Source of the DNA: a bacterium
Lineage (GTDB): Bacteria > JACRDZ01 > JAJRWM01
NCBI GenBank assembly: GCA_024276815.1
Contig: JAJRWM010000100.1
Span: 1 to 39,591, forward strand
DNA length: 39,591 nucleotides
Reading direction: 5' to 3'
The position numbers and the translations under genes were made by a program. A model generated the notes under the pieces. The model did no database searches. It worked only from the letters and a program-made list of their open reading frames with translations, and was not told where the DNA came from. Below are positions 13-23,104 of this stretch, in pieces; positions within the stretch are counted from its first letter, which is position 1, and the number at the start of each line of letters is the position of its first letter.

Positions 13-139
13 GGGATTATCAACTTTTAAAGTTTTTAGCGCTTGAACGACGCGCACGGCTCGCCTGGAAAGGAGCGCGGGGAAGAAACCTTTTCAGACA
101 AGAGGTTTGCCCCACAAAATTTCCGGGGGGAACTCCAAA
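13..139 (+). repeat. Dispersed intergenic repeat, copy 1 (long form with hairpin)
   Basis: This stretch matches the reverse complement of 12191-12317. The first 61 bases (13-73) are identical and the rest differ by a few substitutions and small gaps. It begins with a DnaA-box-like TTATCAACT and the palindrome AACTTTTAAAGTT. It then holds the core CGCTTGAACGACGCGCACGG and a hairpin in which GGGG (79-82) and AAACCT pair with AGGTTT and CCCC (110-113). Shorter relatives lie at 13466-13540 and 22952-23018. No coding frame is evident. It could be a REP/MITE-like element or a structured RNA. Confidence 0.85.
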
Positions 140-148
140 ATTTTGCCC

Positions 149-178
149 TTGATTTTTCTAATATTTAAATGCTAGTAT
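149..178 (+). promoter_or_regulatory. Possible dnaA promoter
   Basis: TTGATT (149-154) and TAGTAT (173-178) are separated by 18 bases, each matching 4 of 6 positions of the sigma70 consensus. It lies about 190 bases upstream of dnaA and just after repeat copy 1. Other AT-rich stretches between here and dnaA could also serve, so this is a weak call. Confidence 0.3.
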
Positions 179-9960: not shown

Positions 9961-10833
9961 TTAACAATCAAAAAACGAAAAACCCGTACGCCCGCCTTCT
10001 CGGGGAAAGCCCTGATTGGTCTCGTAGGCCGGGAATCCTCCAGATCCCGGCATACGCCGGTCACAGAGATACAAGACGTCAATAACCGCGCCCCTGTTTT
10101 TCCAGGCGCTTGAGCGCCCGCCGTAAATTCTGGTTGCCGGGGTCTTTTTCAGCTCTTCTTTAACTGATTTCAGCAGGCGTTCTTTCCGGAAACGCTTTTC
10201 ACCATAAACCCGGTTAATTTTCCTGGCCCTCAGGTATTGCCGGGCCGCTTTCAAATAGCGGCCCTGACGGTAATAGGCCACCGCCAGATTATAAGCCGCT
10301 TTAGCGTAACCGGGTTGTAACTTCAGGGCGGCCTGGTAATATTTCGCCGCTTGGGAAAAGTTTTTCCGCCGATGGAAAACCACTCCCAGGTTGTTATAGG
10401 AGACAGCGAAACTCTTGTCCGCCTCAATCGCTTTTAAATAATATTCTTCAGCCCGGGCAAAGTTCTTTTTTAAAAAGTAACAGTAGCCGAGGTTATTGTA
10501 AAGCTCGGCGTCGCTGGCTCCATCAGCTAGAGCCTTGAGGTATTCCGATAAAGCCAGGCTGACTTCCCGGGACTCCAGGTAGATATCGCCGAGCCGGGCA
10601 TGTTCATCCCCGGCGCTTAATTTTATGGTCGGAAAAAACATCAGAAGAAAAAGAAGTGCGAGCGGTAATCTGAAGCGAATTAAAACCTTGGGTGAGGCGA
10701 TGCGTGTGACCCTTTTTTTATGCCAAAAAAGAGTTTCCCCACGTCCCCTCTCCAAAAAATAAATTGGCCGATCGCGAAAACCTTGTATAAGCTTGAAATA
10801 CGCTCTAAAAAGCGAAGACCAGCGAGCAACCAT
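9961..10833 (-). CDS. Exported TPR-repeat protein
   Basis: The protein has a hydrophobic signal-like segment (FRLPLALLFLLMFFPTIKLSA) and then about four tetratricopeptide repeats, for example ELYNNLGYCYFLKKNFARAEEYYLKAI and the following SYNNLGVVFHRRKNFSQAAKYY. A basic C-terminal region of unknown role follows. TPRs mediate protein-protein contacts, so an envelope scaffold role is likely but unproven. The start is doubtful. The first ATG (10833) overlaps the upstream gene by 29 bases and would place about 50 residues before the signal segment, in DNA that belongs to a dispersed repeat. An ATT at 10680 with AAGG five bases upstream would give a perfect signal peptide (RFRLPLALLF). lepA lies downstream on the same strand. 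Confidence 0.75.
   Translation of the reverse strand: MVARWSSLFRAYFKLIQGFRDRPIYFLERGRGETLFWHKKRVTRIASPKVLIRFRLPLALLFLLMFFPTIKLSAGDEHARLGDIYLESREVSLALSEYLKALADGASDAELYNNLGYCYFLKKNFARAEEYYLKAIEADKSFAVSYNNLGVVFHRRKNFSQAAKYYQAALKLQPGYAKAAYNLAVAYYRQGRYLKAARQYLRARKINRVYGEKRFRKERLLKSVKEELKKTPATRIYGGRSSAWKNRGAVIDVLYLCDRRMPGSGGFPAYETNQGFPREGGRTGFSFFDC
10709..10814 (-). repeat. Dispersed repeat, copy 5 (degenerate)
   Basis: On the minus strand this stretch shares with the other copies the blocks CGCGATCGGC, GGAGAGGGGACGTGGGGAA and a run of T/A at the hairpin end, in the same order. It is less conserved than copies 1-4 and was called by eye. It overlaps the predicted 5' end of the TPR gene and the stop of its upstream neighbour. 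All other copies lie in non-coding DNA, so this argues that the true TPR start is further downstream. Confidence 0.45.
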
Positions 10834-11757: not shown

Positions 11758-12141
11758 TCAGGGCAAATCCACCAGTCTCCCGTTTTTCACCGGGTAATGC
11801 GAAGCCGCGCAATAATTACAGCGCAACAGCCGGCCAGCGGTCATGACGATTCCTTTTAACAAACCATAGCGGACCAGGCATTGCCGGGAATACTCGGAAC
11901 AGGTCGGATAGAAATTACAACGCGGGCCATCGATGTGGGATATCCTGGTCTGGAACAAGTGTAGCGCGTCCTGGAAAAAAAGCCGGAAGACATTGGTCTC
12001 TTTCATCTTTTTTACGGCGGTCGTTTTCTTGGCCGCGATATCCCAAGGGCGCCACTCCGCCCGGCCGGTATTACTTGAAACCAGCAACAGAAAAAGCAAG
12101 GCGAACCCCGCAATGCCCCTGATTAATAACTTTACGTTCAT
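11758..12141 (-). CDS. yidD: YidD-family membrane protein insertion efficiency factor with signal peptide
   Basis: The C-terminal 75 residues carry the YidD signature (DGPRCNFYPTCSEYS, then RYGLLKGIVMTAGRLLRCN). YidD assists YidC-dependent insertion of membrane proteins. Classical YidD is about 70-85 residues and lies beside rnpA and yidC. Here the gene is far from those genes and the protein (127 residues) has an extra N-terminus with a hydrophobic stretch (IRGIAGFALLFLLLVSSNTG), like a signal peptide. The ATG at 12141 was chosen for the basic n-region MNVKLLIRG. AGGAGG lies 19 bases upstream of it and only one base upstream of an alternative ATG at 12159, so the start is uncertain. The TPR gene follows within 30 bases. 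Confidence 0.9.
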   Translation of the reverse strand: MNVKLLIRGIAGFALLFLLLVSSNTGRAEWRPWDIAAKKTTAVKKMKETNVFRLFFQDALHLFQTRISHIDGPRCNFYPTCSEYSRQCLVRYGLLKGIVMTAGRLLRCNYCAASHYPVKNGRLVDLP

Positions 12142-12190
12142 TGCCAAGAAACCTAACATTCCTCCTGCCTGATGTCAACCCGTCACTCCG

Positions 12191-12317
12191 TTTGGAGTTT
12201 CCCCCGGAAATTTTGTGGGGCAAACCTTTTTTTCCAAAAAGGTTCTTCCCCACGCCCCTTTCCAGGCGAGCCGTGCGCGTCGTTCAAGCGCTAAAAACTT
12301 TAAAAGTTGATAATCCC
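12191..12317 (-). repeat. Dispersed intergenic repeat, copy 2 (long form with hairpin)
   Basis: This is the inverted partner of 13-139: 61 bases are identical (12257-12317) and most of the rest matches. GTGGGG (12215-12220) pairs with CCCCAC (12248-12253), and the A/T tracts between them (ACCTTTTT with AAAAAGGT) extend the stem. In copy 1 the same hairpin is kept although its inner sequence differs, which suggests that the fold matters. It lies between yidD and the outer-membrane barrel gene. The adjacent DNA up to 12405 holds no gene. Confidence 0.88.
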
Positions 12318-12405
12318 TCCTTGAAAAACCATGCTATTACAAATAGTTATAGCTAATTGATTGTTTTTTTGGGGGGCAGGGGGTTGTTTGGCATATTATC
12401 GACGA

Positions 12406-13465: not shown

Positions 13466-13540
13466 GGGGTCTCTTTTTGTAAAACACCACCCCCGATCCC
13501 CCACATATCTATCGTGCGAGTTGTTCAAGCTCTAAAACTT
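13466..13540 (-). repeat. Dispersed intergenic repeat, copy 3 (short form)
   Basis: On the plus strand GGGGTCTCTTTTT is followed by CATATCTATCGTGCGAG and GTTCAAGCTCTAAA. The same blocks in the same order occur at 22952-23018. The block GTTCAAGC-CTAAAAACTTT is also shared with copies 1 and 2. It occupies half of the gap between the giant lipoprotein and the barrel gene. It might reduce read-through between them, but no strong terminator stem was seen. Confidence 0.75.
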
Positions 13541-13561
13541 TCATTTGATCGTTAAAAGCTT

Positions 13562-16500
13562 TTAGTACAGATCAAATATGTGTAACCGCCCCAGGCCGCT
13601 GGCGCTGTCGCGTCGCAGGTATAACACCTTGTCCTGGTTGATCACCGGATTTATTTCATCAGCTTTCTGCCCGGTCAGAAGAAGTTTGCGGCCTTCAAAG
13701 AGGTCATAGAGATAAACGTCGCTGTCAACTCCGTTGTCCTCCTGCCAGACAGCCCGGTCGCCAAAAATTCGGGGGGCTAAATGATCAACCGTGGTATCAA
13801 AGGTCAAATCAACGGCCGTGGTATCGAAAACAACAATCTGGGTCTTCCCGGCCAGCCGGTCCTCTTCATAAATATATTTGTTTCCATAAACATCAGGTTT
13901 TCTCTGATTATAGGTTGTGTCCTGGACAATAGCGTAACTGACACCGCCCACAGCCAGGTCGAAGCCGTAAATATCCTCATCCCCGTTGCGGGTGTCTACC
14001 CAAACGACCCGGTTCCTGAAAATGCGGGGGTCGTATTCATCGGTGGTGGATATTCCGGGAATCAGCGTCTCCGTACTGTCAAAAAGATTGTAATAATAAA
14101 TATCGTACTGGGGGTTGTCGCGTCTGTCCTGCCAGACCACATATCTTCCATAGATGTCAGGATGCTCCTGAGCGCCGGTGGACACCGTATTCACCCGCTG
14201 ACCGCTGTCAACGGGATTGGCGAAATCATTCTTGTGAGCGTAATAAATATCCGCCGTGCCCTCCCGGTAATCTTCCCAGACAACGGTGTTTTCATAAATC
14301 GCGGGATTGAGCTGCGTGAAGCTGTTAATACAGACCGGAACCTCCGTTTTGGTTGTCAGATCAAAAAGGAAAATGTCCGGGTTGCCGTTTCGATCATCCG
14401 AGTAAACCAACTTATCCCCCCAGATATCCCAGCCATAAACATTATGAGGCGGTTGGGGTAAATCATGCTCGCCGGTCGGCTCCAGATCAAAGAGGTAAAT
14501 ATTCCAGTTGGGAGCCGCCGCGCCGTCATCCTGGGACCAGACTATTTTCTCCCCCCAGATATCGGGCTTGGCCTTATTCTTGGTGGCGGTAAAAGTGAGT
14601 CTCTTTTCCGAAGCGGTGGTATCCATCAAGTCTGTCATGTACAATTCGGCCTTGCTCGTAGCGTCCCGGTAATCCTCCCAGACGATCAGCGGCCCGAAAA
14701 TAACCGGGTTAAGCTGGCTTAAAGGCTCGTTTTGCAGCCGGGTATCTGTTGTGTTAAGGAGATCCCGGTACCAGATATCATAGTAACCGTCACGGTTGTC
14801 GCTCCAGACCAGAGAGTTCTCCCAGAGATCGGGACTGCTCTGGATGCCCGTCGAAGCGGCGACCGCCAGTTCGCCGGACAACGCGCTGATATCGGACATA
14901 AATAAATCCTGGTTAGTTGTGCCTCTCTCGTAAATCGCCGAAAGTTCCCAGAGAGTCGGATTATATGAACCAAGCATATCATTGGCCACTTCAACAGAGA
15001 CAAAAGGAGGCGCCGACAGGTCCATTTTATAGAGATAGTCGTAGGCGCTACTGTTTGAAACGTAAACCAGATTATTCTCGTATATTGCCGGCGTCATGTT
15101 GCTGAAACTACTATTTGCTGGTATCGCGAAGGTGCTGTCATAAAAGCCATCATACAGGTACAGGTCATAAAGGCCATCCATATTTTCGGAATAAACAACC
15201 TGGTCGCCCCAGATAGCCGGTTCAGCCTGATTCCAGGAAATGTCATTGCTCAGGTTCTGCTCTGTTTTGGTTGACAGGTTATACAGATAAACGTCGATAT
15301 CAAAACCGCTATTATTGCGATGATCTTCCCAGACCACCTTATCACCCCAGATCCGCGGGTTCTGCTGATCAAAAGCGGCGTTGGTAATTATTTTAATATC
15401 ACTGCGGGGAGCCGCGACCCGCTTTACCGGGTTGCCGTAAGTGTAATTACTGTCGATATCATAAGGATAGAGCTGGTAATAATAATACTCCTGGTTGATT
15501 AAGCCAAGGTCATTATAAGTGCTGTCCACGGAACCATAGTAAACCACATCGCCGTCGCCAAGGACGCTGCCCGCATTGTAGGAAATCCCGTTAACCGGGC
15601 CGGCGCCCGGGTAATCGCCCAGCTTGCGCAGGATAAGCACGCCGTCCCAGGCCGGATCAGTCAGGTTGTCCCAACACAGCTCAACGCTGGAGTCAAACCC
15701 CAAGGCCCAGAAAGGGTTGGGCTTGAGATCAATGTTCATGGAAGTCGGCGGGCTGACATTGCCCAGATCATCCCTGGCGAGCAGGGAAATACTGTTGGGG
15801 CCTTCATGGAGGGTGGTGTCAAAGGTCCAGGAACCGGAAAAAGGCGTGAAAGGAATCAGGGCGCCGTTGACAGAGATCGCTTCAACATCCGGTTCGCAGG
15901 TGCCGTCTATTGTCCAGGTCTGTTGGTGGGTTGAAAAATCAACGCCATTATAGGGTGTTACAATAATCGGCGCATTGACGGTTGTGTCGAAAATTATTTC
16001 GATAACATCGCGGGCGCTTTTCGTGCTGTCAGCGGCGACCCCGTAAACGCCAAGATAGTTGCCGCTGCCAGCCAGGTTGATGCTTTCAGTCCAGGTTGCG
16101 CTGTTAGGCGCATAAGCCGTTATCTGAAAGGTCGTATCCAGGGTAGCGTCCAGGAAGTATTTTTCAACAAAGATCGCTACGGTATTCGTGGAATCACAAC
16201 TGCCAGCCAGGGTTACCGGGGAAGCGGCGACCCGGACCGACAAACCACTGCCCGGAGAGGTGATTACCGGCGGCGCGATATAGGTTGAATCCAGAGTAAT
16301 CGCTATGTCTTCAAAAGCCCCGACATTGCTCGAGCTGTCATAACCGGCGAAATGAAAATAATTCACTCCGGTCTCCAGCGTGATGCCGGAATGTCCCCAG
16401 GAAGAATCATAGGCGGTAAAAGTATTAACCGGCATCGTGGTCTCCTGGCTGGCCGAGGTATGAGTAACTATAATAGCAACGGTATCGGAACTGCAATCCC

Positions 16501-19992: not shown

Positions 19993-20021
19993 AGTATAGA
20001 GCCAAAGGAGCAGGATGTCAA
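19993..20021 (-). promoter_or_regulatory. Near-consensus sigma70-type promoter for the FecR/giant lipoprotein operon
   Basis: On the minus strand a perfect TTGACA (20021-20016) and TATACT (19998-19993) are separated by exactly 17 bases. The predicted start of transcription is near 19986, leaving a leader of about 90 bases before the FecR-protein ATG. The leader contains GGAG ten bases before the start. It is the best promoter match in the window. Confidence 0.8.
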
Positions 20022-20083
20022 TTGGAAATTCCGTGTTGGTGGAAAAGGGAAGGAACATCGTACCCCCCTAAAAACTTTACACT

Positions 20084-22234: not shown

Positions 22235-22918
22235 ATGCTAAGAAATTTTCGCTTCCTTTTTATTGTCGCCTTATCTTCATGCTTGGCGTTGGCCTCGGTA
22301 AGCGCGGCTTCGTTTGTCACTTACAGCGACAGCTCAAGTTTCAACGCAGCGCTGGGCGGCACAGTTCTCAACACCCAGGATTTTAACAGTTATTCACATA
22401 TGGACAATTTGAATGGCGTCGAGTTGCTTCCCGGAGTGACGGTAACGTCCAACATGAGTAATATTGTCGCCTGGCAGGTATCGCAGCCCAATCCAATATT
22501 ATTCGCGTATGATAGCGTTATCCGCAACTCAACGACGGACGCTTACTATGATATTAACCTGGCCTCAGCGTATAATACAGTCCAGTTTACGATAGAAGCC
22601 TGGGACCCCGCCGCTCCCGGGCCGGGCACGATGGAAATTTTCTTTAGCGACGCGACCAGTTCTTCTTTGCAATTATTTCAAACCGGGGCTCATGAAAGCG
22701 ATCCAGTGTTTTTTGGCGTCATATCCGATGCCTCTATTGATAGGATTCGCTGGACTGAAGGTCCGGAAATATACGGTGGTGGCAACGAAGAAACGGGGCT
22801 GGATAATATTAGTGTGGGAAATGTAAACGCTATTCCTGAACCAGCCACGATTTTCTTGCTTGGCGGTGGTCTGTTGGGCATGTTTGGTCTTAAGAAAAAC
22901 AGCTCATCTGAGGCCTGA
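22235..22918 (+). CDS. PEP-CTERM sorting-domain protein
   Basis: A signal peptide (MLRNFRFLFIVALSSCLALASVSA) is followed by a beta-rich body rich in Ser, Thr and Asn, and then the C-terminal tripartite signal: IPEPATIFLLGGGLLGMFGLKKN, made of PEP, a hydrophobic helix and a basic tail. Such proteins are processed by an exosortase and move to the cell surface or the extracellular matrix. The body (FxSY...LDNISVGNV) is like the many exported PEP-CTERM proteins of unknown role. The ATG has AGGAG nine bases upstream. A strong terminator follows at 22931-22969, so it is a single-gene transcript. No exosortase gene is in the window, but polysaccharide genes commonly associated with exosortase lie downstream. 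Confidence 0.9.
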   Translation: MLRNFRFLFIVALSSCLALASVSAASFVTYSDSSSFNAALGGTVLNTQDFNSYSHMDNLNGVELLPGVTVTSNMSNIVAWQVSQPNPILFAYDSVIRNSTTDAYYDINLASAYNTVQFTIEAWDPAAPGPGTMEIFFSDATSSSLQLFQTGAHESDPVFFGVISDASIDRIRWTEGPEIYGGGNEETGLDNISVGNVNAIPEPATIFLLGGGLLGMFGLKKNSSSEA

Positions 22919-22930
22919 AGAACTTCTCGA

Positions 22931-22969
22931 AAAAAAGAGGCGTCCTGTTATGGGGCGCCTCTTTTTTTT
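22931..22969. terminator. Bidirectional Rho-independent terminator
   Basis: AAAAAAGAGGCG (22931-22942) pairs with CGCCTCTTTTTT (from 22956), with a run of T on the plus strand and a run of A in front of the stem. It can therefore terminate both the plus-strand PEP-CTERM gene and the minus-strand sugar cassette that converges on it. Its right arm overlaps repeat copy 4. Confidence 0.9.
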
Positions 22970-23018
22970 CTAACACGTCCCCTCCATATCCATCGCGCGA
23001 GCAGTTCAAGCATTAAAT
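22952..23018 (-). repeat. Dispersed intergenic repeat, copy 4 (short form)
   Basis: On the plus strand GGGGCGCCTCTTTTTTTT is followed by AACACGTCCCCTCCATATCC and ATCGCGCGAGCAGTTCAAGC, then ATTAAA. The order of blocks matches copy 3 (13466-13540), and the GTTCAAGC core also matches copies 1 and 2. It lies between convergent genes and includes one arm of a terminator. Confidence 0.75.
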
Positions 23019-23104
23019 TGCAATATTGGCCTGCGGCGAAAAAATCGTTGCCTGTGTTCGTAAAACGCTCTAAAAGGGGGAGGGTTCTTAATTATTGTCC
23101 TGCA

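Follow-up and report, generated by a model that had tools for sequence, protein, structure and literature searches.

The window analyzed here, a stretch of 39,591 nucleotides, is the entire contig C21 of a fragmented 2.39-Mb MAG that comprises 246 contigs, is 91% complete and belongs to an isolated lineage. The contig breaks off at base 1 within a repeat, which occupies positions 1-138 of the forward strand and is followed by dnaA (367-1698, identified with Pfam). Positions 1-400, with the dnaA start at 367 and TTATCCACA at about 316-324, represent a possible replication-origin region. A second copy of the repeat lies on the reverse strand (12192-12383) next to yidD (11758-12141, Pfam PF01809). 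Aligned as positions 12-139 and 12191-12318, the two copies were 92% identical over 128 bases (E about 1e-50). A sequence-only reading of the window had counted 61 shared bases; the sharing is real, and the figure becomes 62 identical bases from position 12. Both copies contain the palindrome AACTTTTAAAGTT and, as that reading had described, a hairpin whose inner sequence differs (AAACCTTTTCAGACAAGAGGTTT versus GAACCTTTTTGGAAAAAAAGGTTT) while its pairing is retained. The hairpin is formed by GGGG..AAACCTTTT and AAGAGGTTT..CCCC in copy 1 (79-113, forward strand) and by GTGGGG..GAACCTTTTT and AAAAAGGTTT..CCCCAC in copy 2 (12215-12253, reverse strand). All of the copies listed in the sequence-only reading are located between genes and, again in agreement with it, no transposase gene adjoins them.

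The repeat is dispersed throughout the genome, as had been suspected from the window. A whole-genome blastn search with positions 1-150 retrieved 41 matches at E<=10, about eight of them distinct and near full length, and the core TTAAAGTTTTT occurred 61 times genome-wide as opposed to twice for a reversed-letter control, so that the copies of the window are accompanied by many others. Approximately 460 kb of the genome, including the window, were also pooled from sampled stretches in which genes were called by a codon-usage script; contigs with copies are overrepresented in this sample, and a repeat common to another intergenic region was present in 91 of its 244 intergenic regions. Copies found at both C40 and C194, and at both C36 and C40, were counted as one each because the contig ends are identical, and the duplications on C40 and C194 match, as expected of a single element. 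None of the 40 other genomes searched yielded a match, none of three other genomes of the phylum carries the repeat, and phage, plasmid, and viral collections gave no match.

Three kinds of inverted ends were distinguished in the genome, referred to here as the GGAG, CAGGG, and TARAGC types. The GGAG type has the terminal inverted repeats TTGGAGTTCCCCC...GGGGGAACTCCAA, as seen in two complete copies: one of 190 bp on C197, with the 9-bp target duplication AAGATAAAA on either side, and one of 302 bp across the C194/C40 junction, with the 8-bp target duplication TTTTGGTG. Copy 1 of the window is the right part of such an element cut by the contig start, with the right end GGGGGAACTCCAA at 126-138. 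Copy 2 is nearly whole (about 192 bp), with the right end GGGGGAAACTCCAA at 12192-12205 and a degenerate left end (12319-12383), its left part matching the left end of the C194 and C197 elements. Neither of these two window copies is flanked by a target duplication. The stretch of 127 bases that had been put forward as the repeat is a genuine repeat but not a unit, being the right part of this longer element. On the other hand, the suggestion that it might be a miniature inverted-repeat transposable element (MITE) agrees well with the inverted ends, the 8-9 bp duplications around two complete copies, the many copies, and the lack of coding sequence. At the end of C200 and the start of C27, two loci with different flanks (L205 and L206) have one and the same GGAG-type left end, 141 bases long; the assembly lost what lay beyond it, be it a MITE or an autonomous element.

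The CAGGG type carries CAGGGTCATTCAATT at both ends, a sequence with 30 matches genome-wide versus one for the control. In one copy, of 209 bp and with the 10-bp duplication GCGATTGTCA on either side, the same hairpin is found internally; the other complete CAGGG copies have no target duplication, and duplications were found in three copies only, two of the GGAG and one of the CAGGG type. Elements of the TARAGC type, most of them 114-214 bp long, have ends of about 25 bp that read TARAGC...GCTYTA, with TA alone at the ends as a possible duplication, and a genome search for an IS630-type DDE_3 transposase, as would be expected for IS630-linked MITEs of the TA type such as Correia and RUP, found none. 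Across all families, the complete elements measure 114-302 bp, occur in many copies, and contain no transposase gene.

The remaining window copies noted near 10709 (with hesitation), 13466, and 22952 have TARAGC ends, so that the single family proposed for all copies holds for copies 1 and 2 and not for these. The first is a complete 137-bp MITE (10671-10807, reverse strand), both ends of which score as inverted repeats of about 25 bp. The second is a damaged element (13466-13563, reverse strand, left end at 13563) with a TTTTAGAGCTTGAAC module and a G-rich hairpin, and the third, also damaged (22937-23072, reverse strand, left end at 23072), has on its 3' side a GGGGCGCCTCTTTTTTTT hairpin located where the convergent gene at 22400-22918 (forward strand) ends. 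The half-site at 22937-22961, on the 3' side of this third copy, corresponds to the terminator half that the sequence-only reading had attributed to it. The core and arm kept by the shorter copies likewise exist as a shared module, though not as a sign of membership in the same element family. The repeats have a mosaic build, with AAAGTTTTT as the joint at which several different left modules are combined with several different hairpin modules, and the TARAGC family presumably acquired its AAAGTTTTT-hairpin module by mosaic recombination. BOX elements of pneumococcus are similarly built of modular, exchangeable pieces, and are not known to be placed at a set distance from promoters. Some TARAGC-ended elements (L062, L063, L065, L083) contain a REP-like GTCATTCCCG...CGGGAATCCA (or GTCATACCCGCG..) sequence. 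A separate palindromic repeat, GGGGG..GGGGG..CCCCC with AAAGTT at both ends (L040, L049, L055, and L057 on C22, C51, C153, and C198), resembles the intrastrand-triplex (PIT) repeats of E. coli.

The enzyme responsible for this spread was sought in the same genome. Mobilization of a REP-like element by a RAYT (TnpA-REP) transposase, of the HUH type, had been among the first proposals, and REP and REPIN sequences are likewise multi-copy intergenic palindromes. No intact RAYT (TnpA-REP, Y1) was found in this 91% complete MAG, and its sole Y1_Tnp match, which might be taken to favor the proposal, is a solitary fragment covering 54 of 121 positions with an internal stop. Moreover, the elements described here have terminal inverted repeats and target duplications, which are foreign to the anatomy of REP sequences and which HUH transposition is not known to produce, and we give this explanation almost no credence. 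A search of the genome with an ISLre2 model, run without a positive control, gave no match. The single DDE_Tnp_1 transposase found belongs to a frameshifted copy of the ISAs1 family (NCBIfam) on C184 (L132, about 470-1655), the ends of which start with CAGGG like those of the CAGGG MITEs but otherwise differ from them (CAGGGGTAATCGCAAACTC versus CAGGGTCATTCAATT). Located 21 nt past the right end of this copy is a TTGACG-17-TATACT sequence, and it may thus also adjoin a promoter. Apart from this copy with its partly similar ends, no autonomous relative was seen in the MAG; multi-copy insertion sequences are often missing from assemblies of this kind. The C36/C40 end was considered as a candidate autonomous insertion sequence and rejected, since its open reading frame looks by eye like a host radical-SAM-type protein and not a transposase.

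A fixed placement next to promoters is a feature of these elements that the sequence-only reading overlooked. It was first noticed in the list of GGAG-type right ends, where a TTGACA/TATAAT pair stood at a nearly constant distance. In the window, 10 nt separate the junction of copy 1 (138) from the -35 of a predicted sigma70 promoter of dnaA (TTGATT-18-TAGTAT, 149-178, forward strand), and the predicted sigma70 promoter of yidD (TTGACA-17-TAGGTT, 12150-12178, reverse strand) is 13 nt from the junction of copy 2. A third promoter-facing repeat end, GGGGGGTACGATGTTCCTTCCCTTTTCCA (20040-20068, reverse strand), is separated by 18 nt from a TTGACA-17-TATACT sequence downstream (19993-20021). Three other copies of GGGGGGTACGATGTTCCTTCCCTTTTCCA occur in the sampled stretches, one with the same spacing (L086) and two diverged (L063 and L062). 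A reading of GGAACTC as the -35 of an ECF-sigma promoter was ruled out by the clear TTGACA/TATAAT pairs downstream, while attC (integron) and tRNA-like readings of GTTCAAGC were dropped after inspection by eye.

Genome-wide, a right-end model built from sequence only identified 16 distinct sites at E<0.01, to which a weaker one on C207 was added. Promoters are consensus predictions, scored against a sigma70-like consensus of our own writing. In 13 of these 17 GGAG-type sites, a promoter scoring above 12 had its -35 at 13-16 nt from GAACTC, equivalent to 10-13 nt from the element junction. At this offset the best promoter score averaged 12.4, compared with 5.1 (s.d. 1.6) in other windows, where at most two of the 17 sites exceeded 12. 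Since both C207 and the offset window had been picked after the pattern was seen, the count was repeated with regular expressions, which placed 10 of 15 sites in the best window (elsewhere mean 0.46, maximum 3). The CAGGG ends provided an independent test, as this family had not been used in forming the idea: by regular expressions, 14 of the 30 had a -35 at 16-19 nt (elsewhere mean 0.58, maximum 2). The TARAGC ends (n=51), scored in the same way, showed no peak of promoter distance, which makes them a control both for the scoring and for placement between genes in general. Orientation also differed between types: the GGAG elements, with unlike ends, have the right end toward the promoter, and the CAGGG elements have either. 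Genes downstream of GGAG-type elements include dnaA, rnpB for the RNase P RNA (Rfam RF00010), yidD, ppa, a purL-type gene, cinA, and a gene for an RluD-like pseudouridine synthase.

Changes that preserve pairing were evident among the hairpins. The arms align badly, and when mixed copies were aligned with MAFFT, the RNAalifold consensus was a meaningless structure of six pairs; for this reason an alignment-free test was adopted in which arms are swapped between copies. In 27 copies, pairing energy was -19.9 kcal/mol with the own arm and -14.1 kcal/mol with a foreign arm (0 of 5000 permutations as good), and in the closest subfamily (n=15) the values were -20.5 and -17.7 kcal/mol (0 of 10,000), figures that are not strict probabilities as the copies are related. 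The arms thus co-vary. Template-switch correction can also keep the arms of DNA palindromes complementary, and because of this and the kinship of the copies, conserved pairing does not amount to proof of a functional RNA. The proposal of a structured RNA family was not borne out, the window having no Rfam match (Rfam 15, gathering score). The retained pairing could also be read as that of hairpin terminators or mRNA 3' ends that insulate the next promoter and were spread by gene conversion or duplication; all copies are intergenic, often 3' of a co-directional gene, and in some related repeats the hairpin is followed by a T-rich stretch. However, the hairpins of copies 1 and 2 are followed by ACAAAATTTCC, with no T run, the target duplications around two copies are evidence of transposition, and a role as terminator would give no reason for a constant spacing to the next -35. 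We consider the terminator explanation very improbable.

Promoter-directed insertion is known from larger mobile elements. According to Guerillot et al. (2014), the insertion sites of TnGBS, ISLre2, and some ISKra4 elements lie on the upstream side of sigmaA promoters, about 15-17 bp from the -35, and insertion creates direct repeats of 8-9 bp; elements with differing ends have the right one facing the promoter, whereas those with nearly similar ends are found in both orientations (PMC3942029). The MITEs described here resemble these Mutator-like DDE elements, that is, the TnGBS ICEs, ISLre2 (p-MULT 3), and the ISKra4 group (p-MULT 4), in each respect: a fixed distance upstream of a predicted -35, target duplications, which measure 8 and 9 bp around two copies of the GGAG type and 10 bp around one of the CAGGG type, and one orientation for unlike ends but both for similar ones. 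They differ in that the known elements are 1.1-52 kb long and encode a transposase, whereas these are gene-less and about 0.15-0.3 kb, and no transposase of that kind was found in this genome, in which ISLre2 was the model searched; in addition, the distance is 10-13 nt in the GGAG type, somewhat shorter than the published one, and 16-19 nt in the CAGGG type. In build they recall the Correia (NEMIS), RUP, and ERIC MITEs, which are also short, intergenic, multi-copy elements with inverted ends and hairpins and without a transposase. Correia copies, in the account given of them in a 2024 review of prokaryotic MITEs (PMC10969869), lie mostly upstream of genes. Nevertheless, Correia elements carry their own promoter, while here the promoter is outside the element, its sequence is unconserved, and its distance is constant. 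The passages of that review on promoters and target sites do not include promoter targeting and leave TnGBS, ISLre2, and ISKra4 unnamed (PMC10969869). Promoter-directed insertion being established for TnGBS ICEs, ISLre2, and ISKra4 (PMC3942029), what appears to be new is the same placement in MITEs, as far as it can be judged from sequence.

The same spacing might have a different origin, with the right end AAAATTTNNGGGGGAACTCC acting as an upstream activator or UP-type site that the element merely spread and that selection kept at a working distance. About five right-end-like sites with little or no other element sequence (ppa, purL, cinA, EF-G, and C36) have retained the spacing, many of the targets are housekeeping genes, and the gap between the observed spacings, which fall at either 13-16 or 22-23, could reflect helical phasing. 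However, the unrelated CAGGG end has a fixed spacing of its own, which indicates that position and not sequence is what the families have in common. Three loci have a CAGGG end directly next to ACTCCAA, the final seven bases of the GGAG end, and in two of them the -35 is 18 nt from the CAGGG end; we interpret these loci as promoters hit by two insertions in succession, with either element keeping the distance typical of its family. At two promoters, the CAGGG insertion removed all of the right-end motif except ACTCCAA, and an operator role of the GGGGGAACTC motif is disfavored because this second insertion took away most of it. Furthermore, in relatives from the phylum the right-end motif is no more frequent than chance. 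We regard an activator origin as unlikely, although selection for a regulatory role after insertion may have acted, since some sites hold little beyond the right end.

The explanation that we favor, and consider probable, is that of gene-less MITEs moved in trans that target promoters and insert upstream of the -35 with a fixed spacing. A non-autonomous DNA transposon of 190-302 bp with a strong internal hairpin, most likely moved by a DDE transposase acting in trans, would have the 127-base repeats as its right part. This transposase would probably pick its targets by recognizing promoters occupied by RNA polymerase, and the GGAG right end would thereby land 10-13 nt, and the CAGGG type 16-19 nt, upstream of the -35. 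With regard to mechanism, we consider most likely the contact between transposase and RNA polymerase initiation complex proposed by Guerillot et al. (PMC3942029), and by analogy the enzyme may resemble those of TnGBS, ISLre2, or ISKra4. We infer that the predicted promoters are active and that the spacing arose at insertion and not by later selection. A broader version, for and against which we see the balance as even, holds that two or three unrelated MITE families follow a promoter-measuring rule with ruler lengths of their own (about 11, 18, and perhaps 18 nt), by which they have colonized the promoters of housekeeping genes (dnaA, rnpB, ppa, purL) in their -50 region and become nested there.

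If this is true, it would imply that RNA polymerase bound to a promoter is the docking site of the transposases, which may belong to lineages other than the known Mutator-like ones. Confirmation would provide many natural insertions for measuring the ruler and testing whether the transposase reads RNA polymerase, and would allow one to ask how gene-less elements enter essential promoters without killing the host. It would also call for caution, as conservation of a motif and a constant spacing to the promoter can mark the end of a transposon and not an operator. In this uncultured lineage, the MITEs would then mark active sigma70 promoters.
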